Source of the DNA: Gelidibacter pelagius
Lineage (GTDB): Bacteria > Bacteroidota > Bacteroidia > Flavobacteriales > Flavobacteriaceae
DNA: 64,000 bases
NCBI RefSeq assembly: GCF_017581925.1
Contig: NZ_JAGEVG010000010.1
Location: forward strand, 62,001-126,000
Direction of reading: 5' to 3'
Numbering within the stretch: the stretch's first letter is position 1; each line of letters begins with the position of its first letter. The notes below the pieces were generated by a model. It saw only the letters and a program-made list of their open reading frames with translations. It was not told where the DNA came from and did no database searches. Positions 8,392-36,265 of the stretch are shown here, in pieces. A program made the position numbers and the translations under genes.

Positions 8392-8511
8392 ATTCCCACC
8401 AGTGGGTTTTGATACCGCGAGCCTTGCCTCGAAAAAAAAAGACAATCGATCATTCACACCTCGTGGGCTTACCCGCTCTTGGCGGTCGGAAGGACCCCGA
8501 GGATCTTGATT
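8392..8511 (+). repeat. Dispersed intergenic repeat, copy A (120 bp)
   Basis: Begins ATTCCCACCAGTGGGTTTTG with a perfect CCCAC-CA-GTGGG hairpin, has a central run of A before GACAATCGATCATTCA, a second structured part with CCGC-TCTTG-GCGG, and ends CCCCGAGGATCTTGATT. Homologous, ungapped or nearly so, to copies B (21184), C (31907) and D (36149). It lies between two minus-strand genes. A 119-codon minus-strand frame runs through it; I regard that frame as spurious. Confidence 0.8.
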
Positions 8512-8581
8512 AAATAAAAAAGCACGAAAATTAGTCGTTACCAATCTCCGTGCTTCCAACTTCATGCTTCGTGCTCCCAGC

Positions 8582-9877
8582 TTATTGTTTTTTCTTCTTT
8601 TGATTATAAATAGGTAGCAATTGTGTTGAAACTTCACCAAATCCAATTCTGGTGCCGTCTTTTTCACAATGGCCCCTCATGATGACCGTATCGTAGTCAT
8701 TGATGAATTTACGCTCTGTGCCATCCTTCATTTTTATGGGCTTTTCACCTCTCCAGGTCAATTCCAACATTGAGCCATAGGAATCTTCAGTAGGCCCTGA
8801 AATAGTGCCACTTCCCATCATGTCTCCTGAATTGATAGGACAGCCGTTAATAGTATGGTGTGCCAATTGCTGTGACATATTCCAATACATATACTTAAAA
8901 TTGGATTTGCTCACGATGGTTTCTTTGGCGTCTTTTGGACGTATTGCTACTTCCAAACTGATATCATATCCTTTTTTACCTTTCGATTTTAAATATGGCA
9001 GAAGCGGTTTGATAGGCTTCGGACTTTCCACTTTGAAAGGCTCCAAAGCATCAAGGGTAACGATCCATGGAGACATGGATGATGCAAAACTTTTTGCCAA
9101 GAATGGTCCTAATGGTACATATTCCCATTTTTGGATATCTCGCGCAGACCAGTCGTTAAAAAGTACCAGGCCAAAAATATATTCTTCCGCCTCATTGACT
9201 GGGATTGATTCGCCCAAATCGTTGGCATCTGTGGTAATAAAAGCCATTTCCAATTCAAAATCGATCAACTTGGAAGGGCCGAAAACTGGTTCAGAAGCGC
9301 CGTCTGGTAAGGTTTGACCTTGAGGTCTGTTTATAGGAATTCCCGATGGGATAATCGAAGAGCTCCGTCCGTGATAGCCTACTGGAATGTGCAGCCAGTT
9401 TGGCATCAACGCATTTTCAGCACCTCTAAACATAGTCCCTACATTGGTGGCATGCTCAAGGCTCGAATAAAAATCGGTATAATCCCCAACCTGAACCGGT
9501 AATTGCATTTCTATTTCATCCAATCTAAAGCAGACGATTTCTTTATGTTTGAGATTGTTCTTTAATGTGGTGTTATTACTGTCAAAAATCTCAGCGATTC
9601 TATTTCTAACTGAACGCCATGTTTTACGGCCATCGGCAATGAAATCATTTAAGGTGTCCTGAAGAAAAATATCATCAGTCAACGCAATCCCGTCAAAATA
9701 ACCCAATTGATGAAGTGCGCCAAGATCGATGGCTGTGTCACCAATTCGGGTGCCAATCGTTATGATATCATCTCGGGTTAAAAAAACACCAAAAGGAATG
9801 TTTTGTATAGGGAAATCAGAGTTCTTTCCCACGTGAAGCCACGACGTACGATCGGGGTTATTTGCTGATATAGACAT
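8582..9877 (-). CDS. fahA: Fumarylacetoacetase
   Basis: 431 residues from the ATG at 9877 (MSISANNPDRTSWLHV), which matches the usual family start; an ATG 13 codons further upstream gives an unconserved extension. It hydrolyses fumarylacetoacetate to fumarate and acetoacetate, the last step of tyrosine/homogentisate catabolism. Visible: an SH3-like N-terminal domain (about 1-115), then the FAH fold with GYHGRSSSI, metal-binding acidic residues in LIDFELEMAFI, FNDWSARDIQKWEYVPLGPF, and GDMMGSGTISGP. No other homogentisate gene is in the window. Divergent from glyA. Confidence 0.95.
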   Translation of the reverse strand: MSISANNPDRTSWLHVGKNSDFPIQNIPFGVFLTRDDIITIGTRIGDTAIDLGALHQLGYFDGIALTDDIFLQDTLNDFIADGRKTWRSVRNRIAEIFDSNNTTLKNNLKHKEIVCFRLDEIEMQLPVQVGDYTDFYSSLEHATNVGTMFRGAENALMPNWLHIPVGYHGRSSSIIPSGIPINRPQGQTLPDGASEPVFGPSKLIDFELEMAFITTDANDLGESIPVNEAEEYIFGLVLFNDWSARDIQKWEYVPLGPFLAKSFASSMSPWIVTLDALEPFKVESPKPIKPLLPYLKSKGKKGYDISLEVAIRPKDAKETIVSKSNFKYMYWNMSQQLAHHTINGCPINSGDMMGSGTISGPTEDSYGSMLELTWRGEKPIKMKDGTERKFINDYDTVIMRGHCEKDGTRIGFGEVSTQLLPIYNQKKKKQ

Positions 9878-10017
9878 AGTTTTGCTATTAATTTGTTTTA
9901 TATTAAATCTATTCAAACCTACATATTTTTTTTAATTTAAAAAGAAAAAAAGACTTAAAGTTATGTTGTTTTTGAGGAAATCCCAATTCGATTAAATTCA
10001 GATGAATAATTCTTTTT

Positions 10018-10051
10018 TTGACCTAATTAACTATTGTATTTAGTATTTTTG
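10018..10051 (+). promoter_or_regulatory. Predicted glyA promoter
   Basis: TTG at 10018-10020 (inside a TTTTTTTG run) and TATTTTTG at 10044-10051, 23 bp apart, fit the Bacteroidota -33/-7 pattern. The transcript would start about 65 bp before glyA and would include the palindrome at 10080-10105. Confidence 0.5.
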
Positions 10052-10079
10052 GGGAAATGTTTAATTTACAATGTCAAAT

Positions 10080-10105
10080 GAGATTTCCGCCTTCGCGGGA
10101 ATGAC
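10080..10105 (+). repeat. Palindromic intergenic repeat, copy 1
   Basis: ATTTCCGC and GCGGGAAT pair around a CTTC loop, inside GAGATTTCCGCCTTCGCGGG and AATGAC. The same element in reverse orientation is at 15786-15808, where the stem is CCAC/GTGG instead of CCGC/GCGG: a compensatory change. Here it falls in the glyA leader, ending 14 bp before the ATG. Confidence 0.65.
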
Positions 10106-10119
10106 TAAAAATCTAATTT

Positions 10120-11391
10120 ATGCAACGTGACCAACAAATATTTGAGCTTATAGAAGCTGAAAAAGAAAGACAATTAAACGGTTTAGAGCTTATTGCTTCA
10201 GAGAACTTTGTGAGCAATCAGGTAATGGAAGCCGCCGGATCGGTGTTAACCAATAAATACGCCGAGGGCTATCCTGGAAAGCGCTATTATGGTGGTTGTG
10301 AAATCGTAGATGAGGTGGAGCAATTGGCCATAGATCGTGCCAAGGCGCTATTTGGAGCTGATTATGCCAACGTGCAACCGCACTCTGGAAGTCAGGCAAA
10401 TACCGCAGTTTATTCTATGTGCTTAAAGCCCGGAGATAAAATTCTTGGTTTTGATCTGTCGCATGGTGGCCATTTAACTCATGGGTCTCCAGTGAATTTT
10501 TCGGGAAAACTTTATGATCCTTCTTTTTATGGAGTGGATAAAGCTACTGGATTGATTGATTATAATCATTTGGAAGATACGGCCAAAAAGGAAAAACCAA
10601 AGATGATTATTGCCGGTGCATCAGCCTATTCGCGAGATATGGATTTTAAAGCTTTCAGACAGGTTGCTGACCAAGTTGGTGCTGTTTTGATGGCAGATAT
10701 TGCACATCCTGCGGGTTTAATTGCAAAGGGTATTTTGAATGACCCAATGCCACATTGTCATATTGTGACCACAACCACGCATAAAACCTTGAGAGGTCCA
10801 AGAGGAGGGATGATCATGATGGGAGCGGATTTTGAAAACCCATTCGGAATGAAAACTCCAAAAGGTAACTTAAGAATGATGTCTTCTTTATTGGATTCTG
10901 GAGTTTTCCCAGGAAACCAAGGAGGTCCATTGGAACACATTATTGCGGCTAAGGCTATTGCATTTGGAGAGGCTTTGACCGATGATTTTATGCAGTATAT
11001 GTTGCAGGTCAAGAAAAATGCCGCTGCTATGGCAAAAGCTTTTGTAGCTAAGGATTATCATATTATTTCTGGTGGAACGGACAATCATATGATGTTAATT
11101 GATCTGAGAAATAAAAATTTAACCGGTAAAGTTGCTGAAGAAGCCTTGACGAAAGCCGATATTACGGTGAATAAAAACATGGTGCCTTTTGACGATAAAT
11201 CGCCATTTGTAACCTCAGGTATCCGTATTGGAACTGCTGCAGTGACTACCAGAGGCCTGAAAGAAGCTGATATGTCAACCATTGTTGATTTGATCGATGA
11301 GGTCTTAAGTAACCACGATGATGAAGGTAAGTTGAATGCTGTAGCCGAAAAGGTGAATGCAATGATGAAAGGGAAGCCTTTGTTTTCGTAG
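10120..11391 (+). CDS. glyA: Serine hydroxymethyltransferase
   Basis: 423 residues. A PLP enzyme that interconverts serine plus tetrahydrofolate and glycine plus methylene-tetrahydrofolate, supplying one-carbon units. Landmarks: LIASENFVS near the N-terminus, [38 protein letters not shown], and the PLP-binding Lys in [15 protein letters not shown]. Everything expected is present. A palindromic repeat occupies the leader and a strong hairpin follows the stop. Confidence 0.97.
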
Positions 11392-11419
11392 TTAACGTCA
11401 AACTTATATCTACCAAACC

Positions 11420-11459
11420 AGACCTCACAGGTTTCAAAAACCTGTGAGGTCTTCCTTTT
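11420..11459 (+). terminator. Terminator of glyA
   Basis: AGACCTCACAGGTTT (11420-11434) and AAACCTGTGAGGTCT (11438-11452) form a perfect 15-bp stem with a 3-nt loop, followed by TCCTTTT. Related hairpins with the same AGACCT start occur at 49530 and 53294. Confidence 0.75.
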
Positions 11460-11481
11460 CCTGCTATTTGAAAATCATTGA

Positions 11482-13044
11482 TTATTCTTCAAAAACCACA
11501 TGTTGATAAGCGCCCAAATCAGGAGCAGCGGTCCGTGATACGTTTAAAATATCAAACGGCACTGAATTTGAAAGCGGATTATTCCCAATAACGTTAATGG
11601 CCGCGGATTCTTGTCCGATAATCAACTTATTTTTGGACGTATCCATAAAGTCAGGTTCTTGGTTGAATACGATATTTTCATATAAGGCTAAATTGTCAAA
11701 ATCATAGTTTGGATCGGATCCAAATTTGTCATTCGGATCATTAAACCTGATCAGACAATTGGTAAATTTAAAATTGAAAGCAGCACCTTCCTCTTCCTCC
11801 ACAAGAAACTCCGGATTGTCATTTCCATAAATAATACAATTGTTAAAATTGGCTGCGGACAAGGCATTGGTAACGACAGTGTCGTCTTCCAAAATCAAGA
11901 AATTGTTGAGATATAGTGCAGGAAATTGCCTAAAACTACTGGACCAATAATTGGCAATGGTGCAATGGGTAAAGTTATATGTGCCTCCATAGGTGCCCGC
12001 AAAAGCAGATTGCCCCGCATTGTTCAATACAAGGTTTTCTGCCGTAATGGAAGTGGCACGTCCTAAAATCCCGAAGTTACTTGAATTATATATTTTGGAA
12101 TTTTTGATCGTTAATTTTGGAATGGCAGCGGTGGGGTTGTTCTCGGCCAAAATACCAATGGTGGCATTTTTAATCGTTGCAAAATTGATTTCATTTTCCT
12201 TACTGCCTTGAAATAACCAGATGGTGCCCCATTGTCCTGGAATATTATCAAACAAAGGCTCTAATCTATCGCTTTCAAAAATGACCTCGTTGGCCATTGT
12301 AGTTTGATCGGGACTGAATTGTCCATTGACTTTTAAAGAAGCGTTATTGGTCACCAATAAACCGGAATTCGCATGGAAGTGCACACGCGAGCCAGCTTCG
12401 ATTGTTAAGGTTTTGTTTTCGCCAACTGCCGCATAGCCATAAATCACATAAGGCTTATCTTTTGTAAAAGTCAACTCGGCATCGGTTAAGAACCGTCCTT
12501 GAACGTTGGTCTCATCATCATTACCATCGCCATCCACATCAAAGGTCAATGTTTCGACAATCCCCTGAGCATCTCGATTTGGGTAAATAAAAACAGCGTC
12601 TTTGACCAAGGTCACCAAATCCACTTTTTGAAAGTTGGATCCGCTGTCAAATTCGATGGCATCGGTATATAAAAATTGGTTATTGGCAGTACCAACACTT
12701 TGGATATCAAAAGTAGTCTCTATAAAAATATACATACTGTCCTTTGCCAAAATTTCTACATTCTGAAATTCTTTTCCAGCAATACCATCAACGTTGAGTC
12801 GGTAGTTGGATGCTTGGCCTTGACCTAGGCGCAGGGTAGGGATGGAGATGTCTTTGTTGCTGCGGTTATAGACTTTCAAATTATAAGTACTTGATCCAAT
12901 ATTGGAAAATACCGTATCTAAATAGACTGTATCTTTTGAAAAGGTCAAAGCACCATTACTTGGTTCGAAATCGAAATCTTTTCGGCATGAACTCCATAAG
13001 ATCAAAGTAGAAATAGTAAGAATAAAATAAAAGCTTCTTTTCAT
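11482..13044 (-). CDS. Lipoprotein with right-handed beta-helix repeats
   Basis: 520 residues from the ATG at 13044; four codons upstream there is another ATG, but MKRSFYFILTISTLILWSSC is the better lipoprotein signal. After an Ig-like or HYDIN-like region (DTVYLDTVFSNIGSSTYNLKVYN, about residues 35-160) come repeated beta-rung segments (TLTIEAGSRVHFH, INFATIKNATIGILAEN, KLTIKNSKIYNSSNFGIL, FTHCTIANYW, FNNCIIYGN, FTNCLIRFN), typical of a parallel beta-helix. The C-terminus DLGAYQ is common in choice-of-anchor Q type proteins. Probably exposed on the cell surface or in the periplasm, perhaps binding or cleaving glycans; no catalytic motif is identifiable. Confidence 0.8.
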   Translation of the reverse strand: MKRSFYFILTISTLILWSSCRKDFDFEPSNGALTFSKDTVYLDTVFSNIGSSTYNLKVYNRSNKDISIPTLRLGQGQASNYRLNVDGIAGKEFQNVEILAKDSMYIFIETTFDIQSVGTANNQFLYTDAIEFDSGSNFQKVDLVTLVKDAVFIYPNRDAQGIVETLTFDVDGDGNDDETNVQGRFLTDAELTFTKDKPYVIYGYAAVGENKTLTIEAGSRVHFHANSGLLVTNNASLKVNGQFSPDQTTMANEVIFESDRLEPLFDNIPGQWGTIWLFQGSKENEINFATIKNATIGILAENNPTAAIPKLTIKNSKIYNSSNFGILGRATSITAENLVLNNAGQSAFAGTYGGTYNFTHCTIANYWSSSFRQFPALYLNNFLILEDDTVVTNALSAANFNNCIIYGNDNPEFLVEEEEGAAFNFKFTNCLIRFNDPNDKFGSDPNYDFDNLALYENIVFNQEPDFMDTSKNKLIIGQESAAINVIGNNPLSNSVPFDILNVSRTAAPDLGAYQHVVFEE

Positions 13045-13195
13045 TATCGTTATCAATTCATATTGAAATTCAAAAATATGACTTTTGAAATTATGAATTC
13101 ATAAGAACCACTTATTTAATTCCCACCTGTTGTTTTAATTAGTGAAACTCAATTTTTAAAAATTCCGCAGCAATGCATTAAAAATTGATAGTTGT

Positions 13196-13265
13196 CCCGA
13201 TAGCTCTCGGGGTACTCCCGCTGAAAAGTGGAATCTTCAAGTTTAATATCCCGAGGTTCTTGATT
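13196..13265 (+). repeat. Probable 3' fragment of the dispersed repeat, with a CCCGA/TCGGG hairpin
   Basis: Starts with the hairpin CCCGATAGCTCTCGGG (13196-13211), and ends with CCCGAGGTTCTTGATT (13250-13265), which matches the end of copy A (CCCGAGGATCTTGATT) at 14 of 16 positions. The last base is the first base of the neighbouring gene's stop codon. The middle does not align convincingly. Confidence 0.4.
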
Positions 13266-14011
13266 CATTGTTTTTGACTTTCCTTTAAAATCTCCCGAAA
13301 CTCTTCACTATATTCCAAGAACTTATCAACGAGATAAATTCTATTTTTCGATTGTAAAAGAGAAGATGACATTTCTTTGGATTCGCAATAGGCAAAATAG
13401 AGGTGTTTATAATCTTTTGTGATGTTCAAATTCAATACTAAAAATTGGTCATTGAAGAATTTATCTGATTTGAATAACGTATCAAAATCGTCTGAGGTAA
13501 TGGTGGTTTCGACTGTTTCAAATTCTCTAGGTGTTTTTCTTTTGAAAAGCTTTATAATACTTTCTCCAATAGCCATGAGGTCTAAAGGACCTGTATTTGG
13601 TTTTTTATATTTATAACCATGTTTTTTGATGTCATTTTGAAACTGTTGGTTAAGTGTTTTACTTGCCGTTTCTTCATTCATCTCTTTAGAAGTGATAGCA
13701 CCTTGGATCTCTACTTCATCCAGTTCATTCACCATCTTTCTGAGTTCAAATACTGGTGTGTCCATAAGGTGCGATTCAGTTACCATGAGTTGATTGGTAT
13801 GATGAAACAGGGAACTAAAAATCAGGGTGTCGTTGATTTGTGCGTAAATTTTAAAATTACCGTTACCATCAGTCGAAGTGATGCTTTTTGAGGTGATATT
13901 CATGATTTTAGCTCCGGAAATTGGAGCTTCAGCATCATAAAGTGTTCCAGTAATGTTCTGGGATAACATCATTGTGGACCAAAGACAGAAGAGGATGGTA
14001 ATTTTAGTCAC
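13265..14011 (-). CDS. Secreted protein with carboxypeptidase-like regulatory domain
   Basis: 248 residues. The N-terminus MTKITILFCLWSTMMLSQ is a Sec signal. Residues about 20-95 (ITGTLYDAEAPISGAKIMN, STDGNGNFKIYAQINDTLIFSS) form a CarboxypepD_reg-like Ig fold, the same module found at the N-terminus of TonB-dependent receptors. The rest is mostly helical and ends in a charged helix. Such free-standing proteins are common in Flavobacteriaceae; their role is unknown. It lies upstream of the beta-helix lipoprotein on the same strand with a 220-bp gap. Confidence 0.75.
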   Translation of the reverse strand: MTKITILFCLWSTMMLSQNITGTLYDAEAPISGAKIMNITSKSITSTDGNGNFKIYAQINDTLIFSSLFHHTNQLMVTESHLMDTPVFELRKMVNELDEVEIQGAITSKEMNEETASKTLNQQFQNDIKKHGYKYKKPNTGPLDLMAIGESIIKLFKRKTPREFETVETTITSDDFDTLFKSDKFFNDQFLVLNLNITKDYKHLYFAYCESKEMSSSLLQSKNRIYLVDKFLEYSEEFREILKESQKQ

Positions 14012-14103
14012 TAAGCAAAGAGATTGATTACCATCAAATTAAACCATTATAGTTTCTTAAAAGTGAGGCGTTAAGAGACTTTAACAATCATTTTAACCTT
14101 AAT

Positions 14104-14493
14104 TTAACTAAACAGGGTTCTAATCTCTTCAGTAATTCGTGCGGGTTTCATGTTTTCTTGGGAGACCAGACACCACTTGGTTTCAGAAGAGGCTAACAGC
14201 TTGTCAGTGTTTTTATTATAAATCTCAACCATCCGAACGCAAGTGACGCCACCTGATTCTTTGATGTAGGTTTTAAGCTTGAGTACATCACCTAAAACAG
14301 CTGGGTTTTTGTATTCAATGGTATGTTTAAGAAGGATCCAGAAATAATCCGATAGTATTTTTTCCGTTGCTTTTGTGTGCCAATGCTCTTCTGCAACATC
14401 TTGCACCCACTGTACATAACGGACATTATTGACGTGGTTGAGGTTGTCCAAATCGTCTTGGGTTACAATGATGTATATTTCGAAGGTTTGCAT
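14104..14493 (-). CDS. Acyl-CoA thioesterase, 4HBT/YbgC-like hotdog fold
   Basis: 129 residues, the standard length. LDNLNHVNNVRYVQWVQDVAEEHW carries the conserved Asp/His/Asn of the 4-hydroxybenzoyl-CoA thioesterase family (usually D-x-x-x-H-V/M-N), followed by the strand-rich core (TIEYKNPAVLGDVLKLKTYI, TCVRMVEIYNKNT, SETKWCLVS). It hydrolyses acyl-CoA thioesters in the cytoplasm; the acyl chain cannot be told from sequence. It lies 65 bp downstream of the glutaminyl cyclase gene on the same strand. Confidence 0.9.
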   Translation of the reverse strand: MQTFEIYIIVTQDDLDNLNHVNNVRYVQWVQDVAEEHWHTKATEKILSDYFWILLKHTIEYKNPAVLGDVLKLKTYIKESGGVTCVRMVEIYNKNTDKLLASSETKWCLVSQENMKPARITEEIRTLFS

Positions 14494-14558
14494 AAATGTT
14501 GTTTTAGATTGTTTGGAACATCCTAATCGTTTTTTTTTTTGGCTTTCGAATGAGGTCT

Positions 14559-15593
14559 TTATTTAACAAAAACTTCCACTTCAAATAGTTTGTCCCACTC
14601 TTTCCCTGTAACAAAAATGGTTTTGGTGTCTGGATTATAAGCAATGCCATTTAAGACATCTAAAGTTTGATGTTGTTTAACCAGTTTTTGAAGCGGTGAA
14701 AAGTCGATTACACCCTCAACCGCACCATTTTCAGGGTCGATGATCAAAACACCGTTGCGTTGGTAAATATTGGCGTAGATTTTCCCTTCTATATATTCCA
14801 ATTCATTCAAACTATCAATTTTACCTGTATTGGTGTATATTTGGATATAATTATCTTCAGCAAGTGTTTCTGGATTGAGCTTCCATATTTTATTGGTGCC
14901 ATCGGTTTTATAGATCACCTTTCCGTCGTTGCATAAGCCCCATCCTTCTTTGCTTTTTCCGTAATTGAAACTGCCGGTTTTTTCAAATGTATCAATACTA
15001 TATATAAATCCAATATTTTCTTTCCAAGTGAGTTGGTAAATATTATCGTTCATTATAGTAAGTCCTTCTCCAAAGTATTGATTGCCTAAATTGATATTCT
15101 TAAGAACTCCACCCGTTTTATAATCTACTTTTCTAAGTTTGGATTTTCCGTATTGTCCAGTGCTTTCATATAAAACGCCATCATGAAATTCCAAGCCTTG
15201 CGTGTAGGAGGTGATATCATGCGGATATTCATTCAGAATTTTATAGCTGTAAATTTTTGGGGCAACATTGTTTAAAATAGTCAAGTTGGTGGACGTCTCT
15301 TCAGTAGTTTCACCATAAGTGACTTTTGCTGTGATAATGTGCACGCCAAGGGTTAAATTCGTAACCTTGAAGTTTTCTTCGATCGGAGTTGCATCAATTT
15401 TGTAGTTTATATTAGTGATCGTTTTGTTTTTTGGGTTTTCTATGGTCAGTTTAATGGTTTCGCCAAGTGCTGTCGTATTGTTTTTAGCGTCAGTTGTGAT
15501 GGAAAAACTACTTTTTTTACCATTCGGATTGTCACCACAAGTCCATAGAAAAAGACTTAAAACAATGATTATGAAAAGTTTAGTTGAAGACAT
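14559..15593 (-). CDS. Glutaminyl-peptide cyclotransferase (plant-type), lipoprotein
   Basis: 344 residues. The signal MSSTKLFIIIVLSLFLWTC has a lipobox Cys (TCGDNPNGK follows). An Ig-like segment (about 30-105, ITNINYKIDATPIEENF) precedes a five-bladed beta-propeller of the Glu_cyclase_2 family: HDITSYTQGLEFHDGVLYESTG, YFGEGLTIMNDNIYQLTWKE, GKSKEGWGLCNDGK and LNGIAYNPDTKTIFVTGKEWDKLFEV. Enzymes of this family cyclise N-terminal Gln to pyroglutamate. It should act in the periplasm, perhaps blocking the N-termini of exported proteins. Confidence 0.9.
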   Translation of the reverse strand: MSSTKLFIIIVLSLFLWTCGDNPNGKKSSFSITTDAKNNTTALGETIKLTIENPKNKTITNINYKIDATPIEENFKVTNLTLGVHIITAKVTYGETTEETSTNLTILNNVAPKIYSYKILNEYPHDITSYTQGLEFHDGVLYESTGQYGKSKLRKVDYKTGGVLKNINLGNQYFGEGLTIMNDNIYQLTWKENIGFIYSIDTFEKTGSFNYGKSKEGWGLCNDGKVIYKTDGTNKIWKLNPETLAEDNYIQIYTNTGKIDSLNELEYIEGKIYANIYQRNGVLIIDPENGAVEGVIDFSPLQKLVKQHQTLDVLNGIAYNPDTKTIFVTGKEWDKLFEVEVFVK

Positions 15594-15647
15594 ATTGATG
15601 ATATATTTTTGGGCAAGGTATTTAAATAAATTCAGTTTTGAAAATCA

Positions 15648-15677
15648 TTGCAAAAGTAGTAAAAGTTTGTATCTTTG
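15648..15677 (+). promoter_or_regulatory. Promoter of the SRP RNA gene
   Basis: TTG at 15648-15650 and TATCTTTG at 15670-15677, with a 19-bp spacer, are an excellent Bacteroidota promoter. The RNA would start 5-6 bp later, at the conserved GGCAAG. Confidence 0.8.
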
Positions 15678-15681
15678 CAGC

Positions 15682-15777
15682 TGGCAAGTCCTACACAACC
15701 AGCTCCTGCTGAATCCTCCAGGGCGGGAACGCAGCAAAGGTAAGTGGTCGTAGCGGTGTGATGTAGGTAGCTTGCCT
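15682..15777 (+). ncRNA. ffs: Signal recognition particle RNA (4.5S type)
   Basis: About 96 nt. The ends pair (GGCAAG at 15683-15688 with CTTGCC at 15771-15776). The apical part carries the SRP hallmark: TCCAGGGCGGGAACGCAGCA, i.e. the C-AGG ... GGGAAC tetraloop ... GCAGCA internal loop that binds the Ffh M domain. The following run of nine T residues, with the closing stem, makes an intrinsic terminator. SRP RNA delivers membrane and exported proteins to FtsY/SecYEG. An ORF on the opposite strand (15632-15817) is a shadow of this RNA. Confidence 0.93.
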
Positions 15778-15785
15778 TTTTTTTT

Positions 15786-15808: not shown

Positions 15809-15883
15809 CAACTTCAACTTCTTACATTCTCATTAGTCACTTCCTTTTCAAATTCAAATTCATTTAAACTTTAGATTATATCG

Positions 15884-16810: not shown

Positions 16811-16849
16811 CGCCACGTTAAAACACAACTTATATACATACTATTATTT

Positions 16850-21183: not shown

Positions 21184-21301
21184 ATTCCTATCAGTGGATT
21201 TTAAAACCTCGATATTTACCTCGGTCAAAAAGACAAATCCTTATTCATACTTAGAGGGCTTGCCTGCCCGTACCGGTCTTATGGGCCTGAAGTTTTTGAT
21301 T
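21184..21301 (+). repeat. Dispersed intergenic repeat, copy B (118 bp)
   Basis: ATTCCTATCAGTGGATTTTA at the start, GGTCAAAAAGACAAATCCTT in the middle, CTTAGAGGGCTTGCCTGCCC then GTACCGGTCTTATGGGCC in the distal hairpin, and TTTTTGATT at the end. The distal part can pair GCCC with GGGC, with CCG-TAC-CGG inside. It lies in the divergent gap between the DUF2007 and fasciclin genes. Confidence 0.8.
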
Positions 21302-23450: not shown

Positions 23451-23602
23451 CCCATAACATAGAGTATTAACTATAGAAATTGATTATATAAAATTATATT
23501 GCTATAAGTTTTATCAATGCATTGGAATGAATGGTGACTGGCGATTCGAAATAAGTCACTGATTTGCAACTTGGCAATATAGTTTCATTAAGGTGCGATT
23601 TG

Positions 23603-23634
23603 ATTCCATCCAGCGGGTTTTGAAACTTCAAGCA
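23603..23634 (+). repeat. Probable 5' fragment of the dispersed repeat
   Basis: ATTCCATCCAGCGGGTTTTG followed by AAACTTCAAGCA resembles the first 30 bp of copy A (ATTCCCACCAGTGGGTTTTG ATACCGCGAGCC). The rest of the repeat is missing: the sequence runs directly into the nhaC stop codon (23637). Confidence 0.4.
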
Positions 23635-29312: not shown

Positions 29313-29328
29313 AAATAAAATTCAAATT

Positions 29329-29365
29329 GAAAAAGGGCGAATGCATCTGCATTCGCCCTTTTTCA
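29329..29365. terminator. Terminator after lpdA
   Basis: TGAAAAAGGGCGAATGCA (29329-29346) pairs with TGCATTCGCCCTTTTTCA (29348-29365): a nearly perfect 17-18-bp stem that can work both ways for the convergent genes. Confidence 0.85.
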
Positions 29366-29366
29366 T

Positions 29367-29963
29367 TTATACTTCTTGAAGTAAATCTATAATGCGAAGT
29401 TTCTTATTGTAATCGGCTTCGTTTACATCTCTGATCAGGCAATAGGCATTTACAGCTTTGTCTTTTACCTTTTTAAAGAGCTCTTTCATGGTACAAGGTC
29501 CATATTCCTTAGAGCGCTGGATATAGTAGAATTCATGTTCAGTGATAAGCTCTGATGCCTTTTTAAGATATTTTTCCTTTAGGTATTTTTGGACGTCGTC
29601 TTTATTGTTTATCGAGGTTTTGTAATCGGTGGCGTTTATAAAAAACGAATAATCCTCGGAAGCTTTCTGGTTTAAGACCAGTACGTCTTTATCTTTATAA
29701 TACGCCTTGATCAGCACAATACCATCTTCAGTGGTAATGGACAGGAAATTGGAATTTATAAAACTCCATCTTGTCTTGGTGACTTCATTATTTTCAGAAA
29801 TGACCAATTCATTGTTCGGTTTAAAAACATACATTGCCTTGGCATCTTCAATGCCATTGATCAAAACCCATTCTTGATTGATAAACTGATTGTCATGATG
29901 CAGTGAATAATCAAAAGGTTCTAAATTTGGGACAATATTATATAAGTAATTTCTCAAGGCCAT
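29367..29963 (-). CDS. Uncharacterised cytoplasmic protein, possible C-terminal GYF_2-like domain
   Basis: 198 residues, no signal. The N-terminal two thirds (LVISENNEVTKTRWSFINSN, LNQKASEDYSFFINATDY) look beta-rich. The last 60 residues (FYYIQRSKEYGPCTMKELFKKVKDKAVNAYCLIRDV) have the Y-Y ... GP-(x)3-EL pattern of GYF_2/DUF4339 domains, which are protein-interaction modules. I know no function. It stands alone with terminators on its downstream side. Confidence 0.7.
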   Translation of the reverse strand: MALRNYLYNIVPNLEPFDYSLHHDNQFINQEWVLINGIEDAKAMYVFKPNNELVISENNEVTKTRWSFINSNFLSITTEDGIVLIKAYYKDKDVLVLNQKASEDYSFFINATDYKTSINNKDDVQKYLKEKYLKKASELITEHEFYYIQRSKEYGPCTMKELFKKVKDKAVNAYCLIRDVNEADYNKKLRIIDLLQEV

Positions 29964-30120
29964 AGGATAGGATAAGTTAAATTAAAACATCAAATCTTTT
30001 CTATTTTATTTAAAGCTACATTATATTTTTCAAACACCATCATTTGAACGATTTAGGGAGGTTTTTTCAGATGAAATGTAAATTCCGAGTTGTTTTTCAT
30101 ATTAAAAAGTAGATTTTAGT

Positions 30121-30155
30121 AATAAAAAAGGGCGAAACTGTTTTGTTTCGCCCTT
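30121..30155 (-). terminator. Terminator of the PA-M28 peptidase gene
   Basis: AAGGGCGAAAC (30128-30138) and GTTTCGCCCTT (30145-30155) pair perfectly, and read on the minus strand the hairpin runs into UUUUUUAUU. It is 26 bp past the stop of the peptidase gene. Confidence 0.85.
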
Positions 30156-30180
30156 CGGTATTAATAGAATTGTATTTGGT

Positions 30181-31749
30181 TTACTGGCTGACTTTATCAA
30201 CGATAATTCGATCTTCCCTATTGGCCAATTTCCAAGCGGTGTAGAACACCAATTTCGTTCTGTTTTCCAACAGGTCATATTCAATCTTGTCTGGCGTGTC
30301 AGACGGTCTGTGATAGTCGTCATGCGTACCGTTAAAATAGAAAATGACCGGTACGTTGTTCTTTGCAAAATTATAGTGGTCTGATCTGAAGTAAAAACGG
30401 TTCGGATCATTGTCATCATTAAATGTATAATCCAAAGTAACATTCGTGTATTTACTATTGGCTTCTTCAGAAACATTGTGGAGGTCCGTACTCAATTTAT
30501 CAGAACCGATCAAATAAATGTAATTTCTATCGCCTTCACGTTTTGGATCTATTCTTCCAATCATGTCGATGTTGAGATTGGCGATGGTGTTTTCCAATGG
30601 AAAAATAGGATTCACATCGGTATAATAACTTGAGCCTAAAAGACCTTTTTCTTCACCGGTAACATGTAAAAATAAGATAGAACGCTTTGGGCCATGGCCG
30701 GCATTTTGTGCCAATTTAAATGCTTCTGCAATCTCTAGAAGGGCCACGGTTCCTGAACCATCATCGTCCGCTCCGTTATATATTTCGCCATCTTTAATGC
30801 CTTCGTGGTCTAAATGCGCAGATAGAACTAAAACTTCATCTGGTTTTTCAGAACCTTTAATAAACGCCAACACATTTTCGGAATTGACATCTTCAGAATG
30901 ACTGGTCACTTTAATCTCCAAATTTGTTGCAATGTCTTTTGAAGTTTTATTCGTTTCAATATCCGCTAATAGTGCCTTTCCTAATTTGTCACTGATTAAA
31001 ATCTGAATCATAGCATCTTGTTTGTCCTTAAGTGTAATACGACCATCACGACCAGATTTGGCCGCAGCCTGCATAAAGTTTGAAACCATTTTTAAGTAGG
31101 CTTCGTCCATAACTAATATGACTTTGGCGCCTTTTGTTTTAGCCACTTCTCTTTTGGATGAAAGCGCCTGTCTTCCTACTGACCATTTGGTATCTTCTTT
31201 GGATCCTGTAGTCACATAAGTACCATCGTCATTTTTTGGCTCTCCTGCTTTGATCAAAACAATTTTATCTTTAACGTCCAAACCAGAATAGCTTGAGTAA
31301 TTTTCAGCTTCTATACCATAGCCAGCGTATACAATATCAGATGCCGTTATGGTTTGAGAGGATGCAGCACCAGCAGTTACAAAATCAGTATAATTTTCAA
31401 ATTTGACGCCGTTCACTGTGATGTCAGTTTCTGGAGATTTTTGATTGACTAAAGGCACATCCTGAAAGTAATCACCATCTGAGAGTGGCGAAGGAATTCC
31501 AAGTGAAATATATTGTTCCTTTAGAAACTCAACAGCCATCTTCTGGCCCTTAGAACCTGTATCACGGCCTTCAAATTCATCTGATGCGAAAGTGTATAAT
31601 AATTCTTTTAATTCATCAGAAGTAATGGTGTTTCCATATACCGTTGGATCAACAGAAACGGTTGTTTCAGGCATGGTTGCCTGTTGTTGACTTGATCCGC
31701 AAGCAAAAATGCTTAGTGCAATACTTGCAATAATAAGAGACTTTTTCAT
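30181..31749 (-). CDS. M28 family aminopeptidase lipoprotein with PA domain
   Basis: 522 residues. MKKSLIIASIALSIFAC is a lipoprotein signal. A protease-associated (PA) region occupies roughly 110-290. The M28 catalytic domain has all co-catalytic zinc ligands: H312 (SAHLDH), D328 (NGADDDGSG), E366/E367 (TGEEKGL), D395 (NLNIDMIGR), and H480 (DDYHRPSDTPD). It should be a zinc aminopeptidase in the periplasm or on the outer membrane. A paralogue lies just upstream on the same strand (32061-33101). Confidence 0.93.
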   Translation of the reverse strand: MKKSLIIASIALSIFACGSSQQQATMPETTVSVDPTVYGNTITSDELKELLYTFASDEFEGRDTGSKGQKMAVEFLKEQYISLGIPSPLSDGDYFQDVPLVNQKSPETDITVNGVKFENYTDFVTAGAASSQTITASDIVYAGYGIEAENYSSYSGLDVKDKIVLIKAGEPKNDDGTYVTTGSKEDTKWSVGRQALSSKREVAKTKGAKVILVMDEAYLKMVSNFMQAAAKSGRDGRITLKDKQDAMIQILISDKLGKALLADIETNKTSKDIATNLEIKVTSHSEDVNSENVLAFIKGSEKPDEVLVLSAHLDHEGIKDGEIYNGADDDGSGTVALLEIAEAFKLAQNAGHGPKRSILFLHVTGEEKGLLGSSYYTDVNPIFPLENTIANLNIDMIGRIDPKREGDRNYIYLIGSDKLSTDLHNVSEEANSKYTNVTLDYTFNDDNDPNRFYFRSDHYNFAKNNVPVIFYFNGTHDDYHRPSDTPDKIEYDLLENRTKLVFYTAWKLANREDRIIVDKVSQ

Positions 31750-31906
31750 TAAAATATAAATTATATGTAAGTGAAATGCGATATTACGAAAAACACAAGA
31801 ATTTAAGTTTTAATTCTCAATTCATTTAACAAACTTTAACAAAGAACTATAGATTTCCTGTGAAATTTGATGAGTTGCTATCACGACCTAAGATTTATTG
31901 GCATTT

Positions 31907-32026
31907 ATTTCACTAGTGGGTTTTAATTCCAACAAACTTGCTTTGATCAATAAAAGGGAATTTCTTATTTATATTTCGTGGACTTGCCCATCCGTACCGG
32001 TCTGATGGGCTCCGAGATTCTTGAAT
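31907..32026 (+). repeat. Dispersed intergenic repeat, copy C (120 bp)
   Basis: ATTTCACTAGTGGGTTTTAA at the start; centre GATCAATAAAAGGGAATTTC; distal part GGACTTGCCCATCCGTACCG then GTCTGATGGGCTCCGAG; end ATTCTTGAAT. The distal hairpin is the best of the family: GCCCATC pairs with GATGGGC over 7 bp. It lies between the two M28 peptidase genes. Confidence 0.8.
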
Positions 32027-32060
32027 AGCACATTTTTATTAGGTGCTACTTCAATTTTCC

Positions 32061-33101
32061 TTAAATTTTATCGACTTTAAGGCGCTCTTCGCTATTGGCA
32101 AGATACCAAGCAGTTGAAAATATAAGTTGCGCTCGTTTTTGCAATAAAGGATAGTTGATTTTGTCCGGTGTATCGGTAGGTTGATGGTAATCTTGATGTT
32201 CGCCGTTGAAATAAAATATGACGGGAATGTTTCTGTAGGCAAAATTATAATGGTCAGAGCGGTAATAATAACGGTTGGAATCGCCTTCTGCATTATATCT
32301 ATAGTCGAGTGTTAAATTTGTGAATTGGTTGTTTGCTGCTTCAGAGATATAGTGGAGCTTCGTACTCAATCTGTCCGCACCAATGATATAGACGTAATTT
32401 TCTTGTTGCTTTTCTTCATGGGCCTTATCCACACGTCCTATCATGTCAATGTTCAAATTGACTACGGTGTTGTCCAAGGAGTAAATTGGATGCTTAACAT
32501 AATAACGGGAGCCTAAAAGACCAGATTCTTCAGCAGTCAAATGCAAAAATAGAATACTGCGCCTGGGGCCATGTCCATCTTTTTTTGCCAGTGCAAAGGC
32601 TTGGGCCATCTCCATAACTGCAGCGGTACCTGAGGCATTATCATCAGCTCCAAAGTAGGTGTCATCATTGGATATGCCTAGATGGTCTAAATGAGCAGAA
32701 ATCACAATGACTTCTTCAGGAAGTTCTGAACCCTCAATAAAAGCAACAACATTTTGGGAGCTTGGACTGTCTTTTGAGAAATAGGATTTCGGAATTCTTT
32801 GATAATAATTATCATAACCCAAAGGAGAAGGGATGTCATTGTCTACATAAAAGTCCTTAAGAAAGTTAGAAGCTCTATGATATCCTATTCTACCTGTTTC
32901 TCTACCTTCAAATTCTTTTGAGGACAAAGCGTAAACATGGGTACTCAATTCTTCAGGTGTAATTGTGAGACTATATTTTATAATGGTTTCGGGATCCTCG
33001 AAAACAATACTTTCTTTTAGATTTTCAATTTTCTGCGTATATCTAATATTCGCACAAGAACCAACAAGTGTTAGTGCGGAAGCAATGAAAAGTGCTTTCA
33101 T
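32061..33101 (-). CDS. M28 family aminopeptidase lipoprotein without PA domain
   Basis: 346 residues. MKALFIASALTLVGSC is a lipoprotein signal. It aligns with both ends of the neighbouring 522-residue paralogue: the N-terminal block (ELSTHVYALSSKEFEGRETGR, then IPSPLGYDNYYQRIP) and the catalytic block (AHLDH, GADDNASGT, TAEESGL, NIDMIGR, DYHQPTDTPD). The roughly 175-residue PA region between them is cleanly absent. All zinc ligands are kept, so it should be an active aminopeptidase with different substrate access. Confidence 0.92.
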   Translation of the reverse strand: MKALFIASALTLVGSCANIRYTQKIENLKESIVFEDPETIIKYSLTITPEELSTHVYALSSKEFEGRETGRIGYHRASNFLKDFYVDNDIPSPLGYDNYYQRIPKSYFSKDSPSSQNVVAFIEGSELPEEVIVISAHLDHLGISNDDTYFGADDNASGTAAVMEMAQAFALAKKDGHGPRRSILFLHLTAEESGLLGSRYYVKHPIYSLDNTVVNLNIDMIGRVDKAHEEKQQENYVYIIGADRLSTKLHYISEAANNQFTNLTLDYRYNAEGDSNRYYYRSDHYNFAYRNIPVIFYFNGEHQDYHQPTDTPDKINYPLLQKRAQLIFSTAWYLANSEERLKVDKI

Positions 33102-33202
33102 TTATCAAGGATTAATTAGCGGCCAAATAAAACGAAAAAAAAGGGAATATAGAAGTAATCCCTCATTTTTGTGATGTATTTCAATCGTGTATTCAAGTGA
33201 CT

Positions 33203-33613
33203 CTATTGTTCTTCAAAATCCTCCAAATCAGGGAATTCTTCAGTTTCTAAGATTTCATATTTGGAAGTGTCCATATCCATATCCAATTCCTCCATATCCA
33301 AACCTTCCAAAATTTCTTTCGAATCTTCGATAGAAGCTTCTTTCTTTAGCTCCAACTCTTCAAGATCTCCAACTTCAGCCGTGTTAAAAATGGATTTATA
33401 CGTAGTTAAAACTAATGAAATGACCGTCAATATGAAGATTAATTGCACTGTTTTTTTCGGCAATTGTTTCCGTTTAGATATATAAAATGCAATAAACCCG
33501 AAAATAAGTGCTGCTACAGCTGGTAAATAGGCTATTTGTGATAACGGTGTCACAGCCAAAATCAATGCTAAAACTGCAGCGATAAATCCTAAAACAATAA
33601 AAAGAGATCTCAT
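33203..33613 (-). CDS. Small membrane protein with acidic C-terminal tail, unknown function
   Basis: 136 residues. Three hydrophobic helices (about 3-22, 27-45, 55-72) are followed by a strongly acidic tail of about 60 residues (SIEDSKEILEGLDMEELDMD, ending EEFPDLEDFEEQ). The basic loop SKRKQLPKK between helices 2 and 3 suggests the tail and this loop lie on different sides or interact. Its start is 3 bp from the stop of the DUF3108 gene on the same strand, so the two are one operon. I do not recognise the family. Confidence 0.75.
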   Translation of the reverse strand: MRSLFIVLGFIAAVLALILAVTPLSQIAYLPAVAALIFGFIAFYISKRKQLPKKTVQLIFILTVISLVLTTYKSIFNTAEVGDLEELELKKEASIEDSKEILEGLDMEELDMDMDTSKYEILETEEFPDLEDFEEQ

Positions 33614-33616
33614 AGT

Positions 33617-34399
33617 TTAATTTTTTAATCCGGTTGCTGATTTAATTTTAAGTTCGCCGTTACCCACTGGAATTTTAAATTTCGCATAAACGGGAACCTT
33701 ATTGGCGTCTGCCGTGAGGTACAATAGATTATCATTTGAGCCGCCCTTAAGAACATCCTTGTTTTTAAGAGATAACGACAATTTATAACACTCTTTTTTA
33801 CCAATAGCAGTGTTGATGGTTTCTTTGCTTACATATTTCACACTGATAACCATTTCTTCATTGTCAAAAAGAACCTTAAAGTTTTGGACATCGCCAGGTG
33901 TGGCTTTATGGATATCCAAATTGCGGATATGGTAAATGGTTGACACAATATCTTTGGTGCCACCATTAATTTTGACAGTAGCAGTTTTATCAAAAATTTC
34001 ACCTTTGCCATTCTTTTTGCGCATAAGACTTTTAACGGAATTGGTCTTATGGCTGAAGGTGTATTGCATAAACTTATAGTAGCTACCTTCATTAATATCT
34101 CGCTTATATAAGTATGGTGTCAAGCTTGTTGGACTGACATAACTCTCATAAAGATCACGAATTTTGAAAAAACCATCCCATTTGGTATAAGTTGCAGCAG
34201 TACACTTGAGGTGTAAAAGTGTCGCATTTGACGTTTTGACCTGACCGGTTTCCATAGTCACTTGTGCAATTTCCGTCATTAGTGCAGACATATTATAAGA
34301 GGCGGTAAAGGTTAGCTTTTCTCCCACTGCAATGGTTTTATTTTGAGCAAATAACATCGCGCTGAACATTAAAAATGTAATAAAAAAGATGTGTTTCAT
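33617..34399 (-). CDS. DUF3108 family secreted protein
   Basis: 260 residues from the ATG at 34399, giving the signal peptide MKHIFFITFLMFSAMLFAQ; 17 codons further upstream is an alternative start with no clean signal. GEKLTFTASYNMSALMTEIAQVTME, DLYESYVSPTSLTPYLYKRDINEGSYYK, and the C-terminal TADANKVPVYAKFKIPVGNGELKI fit the beta-sheet-rich DUF3108 family. These are periplasmic proteins of unknown role. First gene of a pair with the acidic-tailed membrane protein. Confidence 0.85.
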   Translation of the reverse strand: MKHIFFITFLMFSAMLFAQNKTIAVGEKLTFTASYNMSALMTEIAQVTMETGQVKTSNATLLHLKCTAATYTKWDGFFKIRDLYESYVSPTSLTPYLYKRDINEGSYYKFMQYTFSHKTNSVKSLMRKKNGKGEIFDKTATVKINGGTKDIVSTIYHIRNLDIHKATPGDVQNFKVLFDNEEMVISVKYVSKETINTAIGKKECYKLSLSLKNKDVLKGGSNDNLLYLTADANKVPVYAKFKIPVGNGELKIKSATGLKN

Positions 34400-34622
34400 G
34401 TTTGAAAATAAGATGTCAAAGATATTTATATAAACATTAATAATCCTCATATTATATATAAGGTTTTATGTGTTTCTTTCTACAGCCCAACAGTGATGGG
34501 AATTGTTAAATAATTCCCAAATTAGCAAACGCATTAATGATTAGGTCTTTTGAGACAGCCGGTAGGAAGTAATAAATGTAATTTTATGGTAGAACTAATA
34601 ATAACTTTAAAATACAAACATT

Positions 34623-34808
34623 ATGAACTCAGATCAATTTGAAGGTAAATGGAAACAAATTAAAGGTGAATTTAAAAAGAAATATGGAAAAATCACCAAT
34701 GATGAATATACAGAAGCTGAAGGTAACTTTGATAAGTTAGCTGGAAAAGTGCAAGAGCGCTATGGTAAATCCAAAGAAGATTTAAAAAAGGAAATTGATA
34801 ACTGGTAG
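34623..34808 (+). CDS. CsbD family stress-response protein
   Basis: 61 residues, very hydrophilic. MNSDQFEGKWKQIKGEFKKK begins the CsbD pattern (W-K-Q-x-K-G), and LAGKVQERYGKSKEDLKKEI completes the two-helix repeat. CsbD/YjbJ proteins are among the most abundant stress-induced small proteins in many bacteria; their molecular role is not known. A perfect terminator follows, so it is monocistronic. Confidence 0.93.
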   Translation: MNSDQFEGKWKQIKGEFKKKYGKITNDEYTEAEGNFDKLAGKVQERYGKSKEDLKKEIDNW

Positions 34809-34828
34809 GATGCCATTATTGATTTAAA

Positions 34829-34865
34829 GAAAGGTTCTCAAACAATTTGTTTGAGAACCTTTTTA
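34829..34865 (+). terminator. Terminator of the CsbD gene
   Basis: AAAGGTTCTCAAACA (34830-34844) and TGTTTGAGAACCTTT (34848-34862) form a perfect 15-bp stem with a 3-nt loop, then T residues. Confidence 0.88.
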
Positions 34866-35053
34866 TTAATACCCAAGGCTAATTAATAGGATATAGTTGC
34901 GCCTCTCAAAATCAATAATAAAATATAAGAAACTGAAATTTGTCGTCCCATCGACTTTTTAGATTTGGGTAGAAAAATTATATGTAATTATTGCGGATTG
35001 TATTCTTGCATCCCAAATCATTTGAAAAATATTACTATCAATATAATAAAATC

Positions 35054-35254
35054 ATGGAAAAGCCAGAAGAAAAAAAACAGAACAACAGGAAGGAAGATGA
35101 AAAAAGAAATCCTGATTCAGAAAGAAATATGCCATCCAAAGAAAAAGAGTGGGATCCTAATCGGGATATTGAGTCGGATGTGACAGATGAAGAAAAAATA
35201 AAACACCTTAAAGGTGTTAAACTACCCAAAACATCAAACACGAATGAAAAGTAA
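35054..35254 (+). CDS. Small charged protein overlapping trxA
   Basis: 66 residues from the ATG at 35054 (an in-frame ATG at 34991 gives an unlikely hydrophobic extension). More than half of the residues are charged: MEKPEEKKQNNRKEDEKRN at the start, then KEWDPNRDIESDVTDEEKI, and KGVKLPKTSNTNEK at the end. It should be intrinsically disordered. It overlaps the thioredoxin start by 11 bp in another frame, which suggests translational coupling. The second half is less repetitive and looks like conserved protein. Function unknown. Confidence 0.6.
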   Translation: MEKPEEKKQNNRKEDEKRNPDSERNMPSKEKEWDPNRDIESDVTDEEKIKHLKGVKLPKTSNTNEK

Positions 35255-35540
35255 TTTTAATGAAATAATTAATTCAGAAACCCCCGTTTTAGTGGATTTT
35301 TACGCAGAATGGTGTGGTCCCTGTAAAACTTTGATATCAATTTTGGAAGAAGTGAAATCAGAATTGGGTGATGCCATAAAAATCATAAAAATTGATGTTG
35401 ACAAAAACCACTTGTTAGCGACCAATTATCGAGTTAAGAGCGTACCTACGCTGGTGCTTTTTAACGATGGGAATCAGGTTTGGCGACAATCTGGAGTATT
35501 ACAGAAAGGCGATTTAATCAAGGTATTACAATCTCATTGA
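35244..35540 (+). CDS. trxA: Thioredoxin
   Basis: 98 residues from the ATG at 35244; a start ten codons earlier lies inside the upstream gene and gives an atypical extension. Classical active site VDFYAEWCGPCKTL, cis-Pro in KSVPTLVLFNDGN, and the usual C-terminal helix. A cytoplasmic general disulfide reductase. It is coupled by an 11-bp overlap to the small charged protein upstream. It differs from the CGNC thioredoxin near 22.5 kb. Confidence 0.9.
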   Translation: MKSNFNEIINSETPVLVDFYAEWCGPCKTLISILEEVKSELGDAIKIIKIDVDKNHLLATNYRVKSVPTLVLFNDGNQVWRQSGVLQKGDLIKVLQSH

Positions 35541-35638
35541 TTTCTTTTGACATTAATACCTAAACTAAAGAAACTGACCAATATCATTGTTGCTATTCTG
35601 GTATTGCTGTATCTTGGTGGAATAAAACAAATAACATC

Positions 35639-36094
35639 ATGTATACTAACTTAGACGAGAACGCCAGCTTAAAGATTCTCAAAAACGATTATTTAGGGCA
35701 TTTATCCTATATCTATCAGAACAGACCGTTTGTTGTTCCCATCACCTATCATTATGATGCCGAGAGAAATGTTATCATTTGCTATTCTGCTGAAGGTCAT
35801 AAAATGAATGCGATGAGAAAAAACAATGAAGTAGCATTTAATATTGTGGATGTTGATGGGCTTACCAATTGGAAATCGGTTATGGTTCACGGCAAATTTG
35901 AACAACTCTTCGGTAGTGATGCTAAGTCTTATCTACATGTTTTTTCTTTAGGAATCAAAACGCTAATCGCTGAGAAGGAATTGAAAGAATTGAGCTTTAT
36001 TAGTGAGTTTTCGAGTAAGGCGATCAACGAAAACATTCCTATGATTTTCATCATTAAAGTGGAAGAAGTCACAGGTAAGATGAGGAAAGACTAA
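35639..36094 (+). CDS. Pyridoxamine-5'-phosphate-oxidase-like flavin-binding protein (Nim-like)
   Basis: 151 residues. YLGHLSYIYQNRPFVVPITYHYD, then IICYSAEGHKMNAMRKNNEVAFNIVDVDG and WKSVMVHGKFEQL, is the split-barrel FMN-binding fold (Pyridox_ox_2) shared by Nim-type proteins. Relatives bind FMN, F420 or haem; this short bacterial type usually binds FMN and has an unknown reductase role. It follows trxA by 98 bp on the same strand. A hydrophobic 35-codon frame overlaps its start. Confidence 0.85.
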   Translation: MYTNLDENASLKILKNDYLGHLSYIYQNRPFVVPITYHYDAERNVIICYSAEGHKMNAMRKNNEVAFNIVDVDGLTNWKSVMVHGKFEQLFGSDAKSYLHVFSLGIKTLIAEKELKELSFISEFSSKAINENIPMIFIIKVEEVTGKMRKD

Positions 36095-36148
36095 ATCAAT
36101 CCACAATTTTTTCATGCTTCTTAAGAGCAGAACGCTCCATAATGATTA

Positions 36149-36265
36149 ATTCCTACGAGTGGGTTTTTCACCTGAGGCATGACTTAATCAAAAAGACGAT
36201 TTCTTATTCATTCTTAGAGGACTTGCCTACTCGTGTCGGTTGGACTGAACATGAGACTCTTGATT
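36149..36265 (+). repeat. Dispersed intergenic repeat, copy D (117 bp)
   Basis: Start ATTCCTACGAGTGGGTTTTT; centre AATCAAAAAGACGATTTCTT and ATTCATTCTTAGAGGACTTG; distal part CCTACTCGTGTCGGTTGGAC; end GAGACTCTTGATT. Its distal hairpin is the least conserved of the four copies. It lies 54 bp past the flavin-binding protein gene. Confidence 0.75.

Follow-up and report, generated by a model that had tools for sequence, protein, structure and literature searches.

Several described systems come close to the element reported here. Transposons of the tnpA-only IS200 type have, in the parts of PMC6006769 covered, subterminal hairpins in a set order, a right terminus reading TTCATT or TTGATT and insertion 3' of a short T-rich target, with neither inverted repeats nor target duplication (the enzyme classes used here follow the same parts of that source). 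The palindrome-associated transposable elements (PATEs) of Haloquadratum walsbyi (PMC3119063) and a PATE-like element of Halanaerobium (PMC7290912) are, in the covered parts of both papers, transposase-free, with near-terminal palindromes related to IS605-type ends, heterogeneous copies and some forms that arose by core deletion, again lacking inverted repeats and target duplication. Repetitive extragenic palindromes (REPs) associated with REP-associated tyrosine transposases (RAYT, or TnpA-REP) are palindromic, intergenic, multicopy and linked to Y1 enzymes, according to the parts of PMC6006769 and PMC3733652 covered. Here we analyse 64,000 nucleotides of Gelidibacter pelagius (assembly GCF_017581925.1, contig NZ_JAGEVG010000010.1, positions 62,001 to 126,000), hereafter the window, which holds four copies (A to D) of a dispersed structured repeat of about 118 bp that a sequence-only reading had noticed but could not name.

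We consider it very probable (roughly 0.9) that these repeats are non-autonomous, ends-only derivatives, of the PATE type, of a tnpA-only transposon of the IS200/IS605 family. We class them as a new family of PATEs descended from IS200, for which mobilisation in trans, the defining feature of the type, is inferred. The repeat shares hairpin order, right terminus and target type with the tnpA-only transposons, and differs from them in lacking tnpA, in its sizes (~118, 96 or 40 bp), in a stronger first hairpin and in ~20 extra nucleotides within hairpin 3 of the longest class. Compared with the PATEs in the covered parts of PMC3119063 and PMC7290912, it has other ends, another host phylum and another target, and a transposase of the parent group was not found in nine Gelidibacter draft genomes.

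Anatomy and parent type

The family consensus runs from a host ATT through hairpin 1 (CCCACCAGTGGG), TTTTAATACC, hairpin 2 (CGAGG-CTTG-CCTCG), a 26-nt linker and hairpin 3, which begins CCTCG-T-GGG-CTTG, to the terminus GAGGTTCTTGATT. The palindromes are near-terminal in both the sequence and the folds. The termini themselves (CCCACC... and ...TTCTTGATT) are not inverted repeats of each other, so terminal inverted repeats are absent.

Within a collection of species genomes, the exact left-end pattern occurred in 15 stretches, 13 of them in Gelidibacter and two in one metagenome-assembled genome (MAG) of the Nitrospinota. The parent type came to light through the Nitrospinota consensus, which had matches on plasmids of two cyanobacteria: at 35 of 37 bases, its 3' end agrees with the right terminus of an element there that bears tnpA. 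When the plasmid TnpA was used as a protein query, 71 of 397 Flavobacteriaceae genomes matched. Many weaker matches were other Y1 types, and 14 loci (L309-L322) belong to this TnpA group (51-76% identity), three of their tnpA genes containing internal stops. On our own reading, the TnpA of this group falls into subclass 1.1, as that subclass is set out in the covered parts of PMC6006769.

Scanning the 16 loci of the TnpA group (14 in Flavobacteriaceae, two on the cyanobacterial plasmids) for ends yielded 14 left ends, their anchors picked by eye, and 11 right ends. Their layout is that of the repeat. The left flank reads TTTAAT in nine of the 14 and TTTATT in two; next come ATNCCNCG, or a sequence close to it, and a hairpin. 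On the right side, 11 of the 16 loci carry the order GATACCNCG, hairpin, GGT..TTNATT downstream of tnpA. Profiles of these ends, none of which came from Gelidibacter, were then scanned over 1.19 Mb of G. pelagius sequence fetched around known copies. The repeats fill 0.58% of these bases, and 19 of the 20 best left-end hits and 18 of the 20 best right-end hits fell on them, all on the matching strand. Ten column-shuffled profiles of each kind placed none (left) and none or one (right) of their best hits on repeats. The ends of the repeat are thus related to those of IS200-type transposons.

Relatives of the whole layout were found in the Nitrospinota. A relaxed left-end pattern matched the MAG 138 times (control, 1). 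Of 32 left-end hits from 30 MAG loci, we aligned the 16 in which CTTG occupies the hairpin 2 position, and 15 of these show the three-hairpin layout in ~99 bp. The remaining hits share hairpin 1 only and mostly continue into different sequence, including other palindromes, hence not all 138 matches are this element. Across the MAG's phylum, the left-end pattern with one mismatch allowed was present in 19 of 77 genomes (control, two matches in two genomes), and the layout was visible by eye, in some cases degraded, in 25 of 28 loci read. Loci L248-L277 and L279-L306 represent these mini-elements in genomes of the phylum. A rather unlikely possibility is that the strong hairpin 1 followed by TTTT (CCCACCAGTGGGTTTT) marks a distinct lineage of mini-elements common to Gelidibacter and Nitrospinota; such ends-only elements would have moved between phyla and spread in genomes that lack the parent transposon, with mobilisation by a Y1 enzyme that is either non-cognate or present only transiently.

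Family, insertion sites and movement

The sequence-only reading had named a whole-genome copy search as a check, and had regarded fewer than a handful of copies as evidence against a family. BLAST with copy C alone found 23 places in the G. pelagius genome, and a covariance model built from 25 copies found 57, both well above that limit. With short forms and fragments counted, the fetched 1.19 Mb hold 76 copies, matched over at least 105 nt in 35, over 75-104 nt in 22 and over a shorter length in 19. The three size forms (~118, ~96 and ~40 bp) are all too small to encode a transposase. The 96-bp class lacks ~20 nt inside hairpin 3 relative to the 118-bp class, and the 40-bp form is the left hairpin joined to the right terminus. 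Thirteen copies of this shortest form occur in G. pelagius and six in three sister genomes (up to three mismatches), with zero matches to the backward pattern used as a control; the 40-bp patterns, which allowed three or four mismatches, favour young copies. The 40-bp form may be mobile by itself, or may have formed in place via deletion between two CCCCGAGG repeats.

The consensus matches five of 39 genomes searched, all of them Gelidibacter (five of the nine in the genus), and none of the 30 other genomes in our sample of the family and order. It matched neither phages nor plasmids, and two left-end patterns found nothing in the viral contigs searched. In the part of the literature on Gelidibacter genomes and repeats that was covered, no title concerns such a repeat.

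Lineage-specific insertions occur. One syntenic contig set gave 30 profile hits, and we tested for empty sites at the 18 that span at least 86 model positions. The genomes of the genus include G. pelagius (G000), G. japonicus Bio7-1 (G007), G. gilvus IC158 (G008) and one that fits G. maritimus F6074 (G005) through an identical copy with identical flanks. Four of the 18 gave clean empty sites: copies A and B (Table 1), the copy at G000:C5:132601, which is absent from G. japonicus and G. gilvus, and the copy at G007:C10:104675, absent from G. gilvus. The element lies directly 3' of a host ATT (at 132601 both relatives have ATC), and its last three bases are an ATT of its own. Two of the sites, copy B and 132601, have TTTATT on the left and TTGATT on the right, hence nothing is duplicated beyond ATT; at the sites that can tell, the target-site duplication that the sequence-only reading had suggested looking for is therefore not visible beyond these three bases, which the element's own right end carries. 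An older site, at window positions 13138-13254, is filled in G000, G003, G005, G007 and G008 and empty in G001, G002, G004 and G006. Together with the later empty sites, this places insertions in the common ancestor of five species and again afterwards.

The target is specific. Among the 71 copies anchored on the left (of the 76, five lack an anchor on this side and six on the right), the left flank is TTNATT in 47 and TTTATT in 29, compared with a background of 0.35% and 0.12% of all positions, respectively. Most copies (69 of 76) lie mostly outside heuristic open reading frames (ORFs), at a coding fraction of 0.83. Of 64 classifiable copies, 42 sit between co-directional, 16 between convergent and six between divergent gene pairs (background 284, 75 and 100). 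A terminator-like hairpin with a T-run precedes 11 of 76 copies as against 12 of 3,800 positions drawn at random from coding and other sequence, and the T-rich target may explain this placement. Finally, orientation seems to follow local GC skew: 48 copies on the + strand lie in positive and 13 in negative skew, with seven and eight, respectively, on the - strand (Fisher p 0.022, Mann-Whitney p 0.006, on 76 non-independent copies), as would be expected for single-strand transposition. Empty sites in sister species, the target motif and the homology to IS200-type ends all support the mobile, transposase-dependent element that the sequence-only reading had entertained.

IS608 and ISDra2 move by single-stranded, hairpin-guided cut and paste that favours the lagging-strand template, and in IS608 a guide sequence pairs with the cleavage site. 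The Gelidibacter repeat may have moved in a similar way. On this reading, hairpins 1 and 2 are the left end, and hairpin 3 with the terminal TTGATT is the right end, of a transposon from which the intervening tnpA was lost. A Y1 HUH transposase, supplied in trans, would have recognised the folded ends as single-stranded DNA, cutting 3' of the host TTNATT and after the element's own TTGATT. The excised element would then have been rejoined 3' of a second TTNATT, a step favoured where replication exposes single-stranded DNA. Its former cognate transposase has presumably since been lost from the lineage.

Transposases, folds and rival explanations

Matches to the Y1 family (PF01797) occur in seven of the nine Gelidibacter genomes, with 32 listed in 31 loci. 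A cognate tnpA was sought by tblastn in these 31 loci of the nine drafts and not found: the best significant match to the parent TnpA was 36.5% over 63 amino acids, compared with 51-76% for L309-L322. The sequence-only reading had suggested a search for a coding element with the same ends; none turned up in these genomes, and related ends occur on tnpA-bearing elements of other genera. TnpB (PF07282) was detected in none of the nine genomes, while six of 14 control genomes matched, and tblastn at E 1e-3 found no tnpA in the loci of the Nitrospinota left-end hits (L248-L306). As a candidate full-length partner between two copies we considered L015, which has a second, 3'-only copy 1.2 kb away. 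The intervening ORF (1686-2822) probably encodes, on our reading, a host sensor kinase (no family search was made), and this candidate was rejected.

The presence of several RAYT-like and IS200-like Y1 genes in Gelidibacter genomes would suit a REP family moved by a RAYT of the genome itself, as would the palindromic, intergenic nature of REPs and their insertion without target duplication. We nevertheless consider this explanation very unlikely, since copies were not found beside a cognate RAYT gene: a search out to 1.5 kb around the 31 Y1 loci gave no significant copy (best E 2.3), and at the 20 Y1 loci whose flanks were read the palindromes are different ones, such as those of the GCCCTGAAAGGGC, AGCTCCGTAGGAGC, GACCTGTCAGGTTTTAAAAACCTGACAGGTC and GCGAGCGTCCCGCTCG types. 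Unlike the RAYT-linked REPs in the covered parts of PMC6006769 and PMC3733652, the repeat shows no visible GTAG or CGTC foot, is far longer, has three hairpins and lies away from the Y1 loci examined. Where a GT[AG]G foot would be expected, at hairpin 1, TTNATT precedes the hairpin in the 47 of 71 copies counted above, and profiles of IS200 ends find the repeat directly. The REP-like element suggested by the sequence-only reading was thus not upheld in the RAYT-type form tested here.

Several Y1 genes met in this search are of interest in themselves. An IS200-like TnpA of 151-154 amino acids is found at L024, L109, L110 and L111 (in G000, G005, G007 and G008) with similar flanks and GCCCTGAAAGGGC-type palindromes around it, and looks resident rather than mobile. 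In four sister species (L029, at G000:C15:49389; L126, G007:C4; L120, G008:C24; L128, G005:C12) a RAYT-like Y1 domain shares one open frame with what we take to be a HemF-type coproporphyrinogen oxidase (no family search was made). Palindromes resembling GACCTGTCAGGT...ACCTGACAGGTC lie close to the linker and within it. At L026 (G000:C8:138053-138382), a Y1_Tnp domain is embedded in a 1276-amino-acid open frame that looks like an Eco57I-type methylase, as far as we can judge.

A multicopy, dispersed structured RNA family, its RNA fold kept by selection, would also account for stable folding, and the consensus fold is stable (RNA z -2.8, DNA z -3.0); hairpin 1 is included in the DNA fold and not in the RNA fold. 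Covariation, which the sequence-only reading had named as a check, gave a divided answer. It is present between elements of different phyla, in alignments that include one Gelidibacter sequence and the Nitrospinota consensus and from which we omitted by hand the L308 right end (the same as L307) and the L319 left end, which would break one outer pair. The right-end stem had 97.2% of cells paired against 81.8% in shuffled alignments, with 21 double changes against 6.6. For the left-end stem the figures were 100% versus 75.7% paired and 16 versus 5.4 double changes; in each case 0 of 500 shuffles came as high. Between the 25 dispersed copies there is no clear covariation. The long-hairpin fold was not kept beyond chance (81.6% of cells paired versus 80.9% shuffled, 68 of 500; other measures 51 to 181 of 500), and RNAalifold retains hairpin 1 alone, without any double change. 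A column-pair scan put mostly non-structural pairs at the top. A three-way-junction fold scored slightly above shuffles (21 to 68 of 500 as high), an excess that relatedness alone can give.

Among copies, C to T (0.159) and G to A (0.129) changes predominate, and Rfam gave no match at the repeat, either in a gathering search of the window or in a permissive search of five loci. Moreover, covariation between elements is expected of ends recognised by a Y1 transposase. The structured RNA raised by the sequence-only reading is therefore highly improbable. As the stems covary between elements and not clearly between copies, the ends appear to have been shaped as parts of source elements. The folds are those of single-stranded transposon ends, and the divergent copies now look mostly decayed.

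The sequence-only reading had also named a miniature inverted-repeat transposable element (MITE). We give least weight of all to a classical MITE moved by a DDE transposase and duplicating a 3-bp target (ATT), because although ATT stands on both sides in 41 of 66 copies anchored at both ends (and ATG on both in one), the left triplet is not ATT in 17 copies while the right is still ATT in 10 of them (some perhaps one-base anchor shifts), terminal inverted repeats are lacking, no duplication is seen beyond the ATT of the right end, and the ends are homologous to those of IS200.

Several observations weigh against an ends-only IS200 derivative. Besides the cognate tnpA not found in the nine drafts, the Nitrospinota MAG, which may be incomplete, has a single Y1 match, and this belongs to a different type and is flanked by an inverted repeat of its own. 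Hits of the right-end profile are individually weak (best E 0.38), and hairpin 2, being similar to hairpin 3, attracts some of them. None of the 14 left ends read from elements with tnpA showed hairpin 1 in its strong form. For right-end covariation, two of five measures were not above shuffles (60/500 and 290/500); for the left end no measure fails, with the weaker ones at 28/500 and 18/500. The host site of copy A is itself TTGATT, where a duplication of up to six bases is possible, and for 14 of the 18 copies no lineage-specific empty site could be placed to the base, two of these being the old site at 13138-13254. The copies in the skew test are, as noted, not independent.

Copies in the window and implications

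Features of the repeat family in the window are collected in Table 1. A leave-out profile, built from 21 of the 25 aligned copies with the four window copies excluded, found all four at E 1e-21 to 1e-27, where the sequence-only reading had placed them, and gave zero matches at E<=10 on the reversed window. Their end-to-end alignment and the sequence blocks named for them were likewise borne out. A count of four proved too low, as a 5' piece, a weak partial copy and a decayed copy had been missed. The common orientation holds within the window but not beyond it (61 copies on the + and 15 on the - strand in the fetched G. pelagius stretches). All four copies do lie between the larger ORFs, as had been claimed, but one ORF of 119 amino acids (8308-8667, - strand) spans copy A.

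Table 1. Copies and parts of the repeat in the window (positions count from the first base of the window).
Feature	Position	Strand	Basis
Copy A, full length (118-bp class)	8392-8511	+	Leave-out profile (boundaries 8392-8511, E 1.1e-27) and alignment; orthologous site empty in G. japonicus (G007)
Copy A, hairpin 1 (CCCACCAGTGGG), first left-end bases	8395-8406	+	Sequence; DNA fold of family consensus (RNA fold without hairpin 1)
Copy A, hairpin 2, IS200-type subterminal left-end hairpin	8418-8431	+	Sequence; counterpart in 13 left ends of tnpA-bearing elements
Copy A, hairpin 3, right-end hairpin	8459-8502	+	Sequence; right ends of tnpA-bearing elements
Copy A, right terminus ATCTTGATT (family consensus TTCTTGATT), putative right cleavage sequence	8503-8511	+	Sequence; right-end statistics
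Copy B, full length	21184-21301	+	Leave-out profile (boundaries 21184-21301, E 8.9e-24) and alignment; orthologous site empty in G. gilvus (G008)
Copy C, full length	31907-32026	+	Leave-out profile (boundaries 31909-32024, E 2.8e-26) and alignment
Copy D, full length	36149-36265	+	Leave-out profile (boundaries 36149-36265, E 1.2e-21) and alignment
Old, strongly decayed copy	~13138-13254	+	Read from alignment; profile misses the window's own copy
5' piece of a copy, left end only	23600-23633	+	Direct-repeat family D3; sequence
Weak partial copy, profile positions 7-70	2608-2692	+	Leave-out profile, E 8.9e-6

Copy C sits between two adjacent M28 peptidase paralogues (30181-31749 and 32061-33101), which share a 261-nt stretch at 70% identity. 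Elsewhere, the window carries a small signal recognition particle RNA of the Bacteroidales type at 15675-15781 (RF04183, 103.6 bits).

The occurrence of the same layout in two distant phyla, with the parent transposase not found, raises the question of what moves ends-only IS200 elements. The repeat also cautions against taking sequences of this kind for regulatory RNAs, as its fold covaries between source elements and shows no clear covariation among the dispersed copies. For Gelidibacter, an unnamed structured repeat becomes a mobile element whose boundaries, target and parent family are defined, which allows the genomes of the genus to be annotated accordingly.

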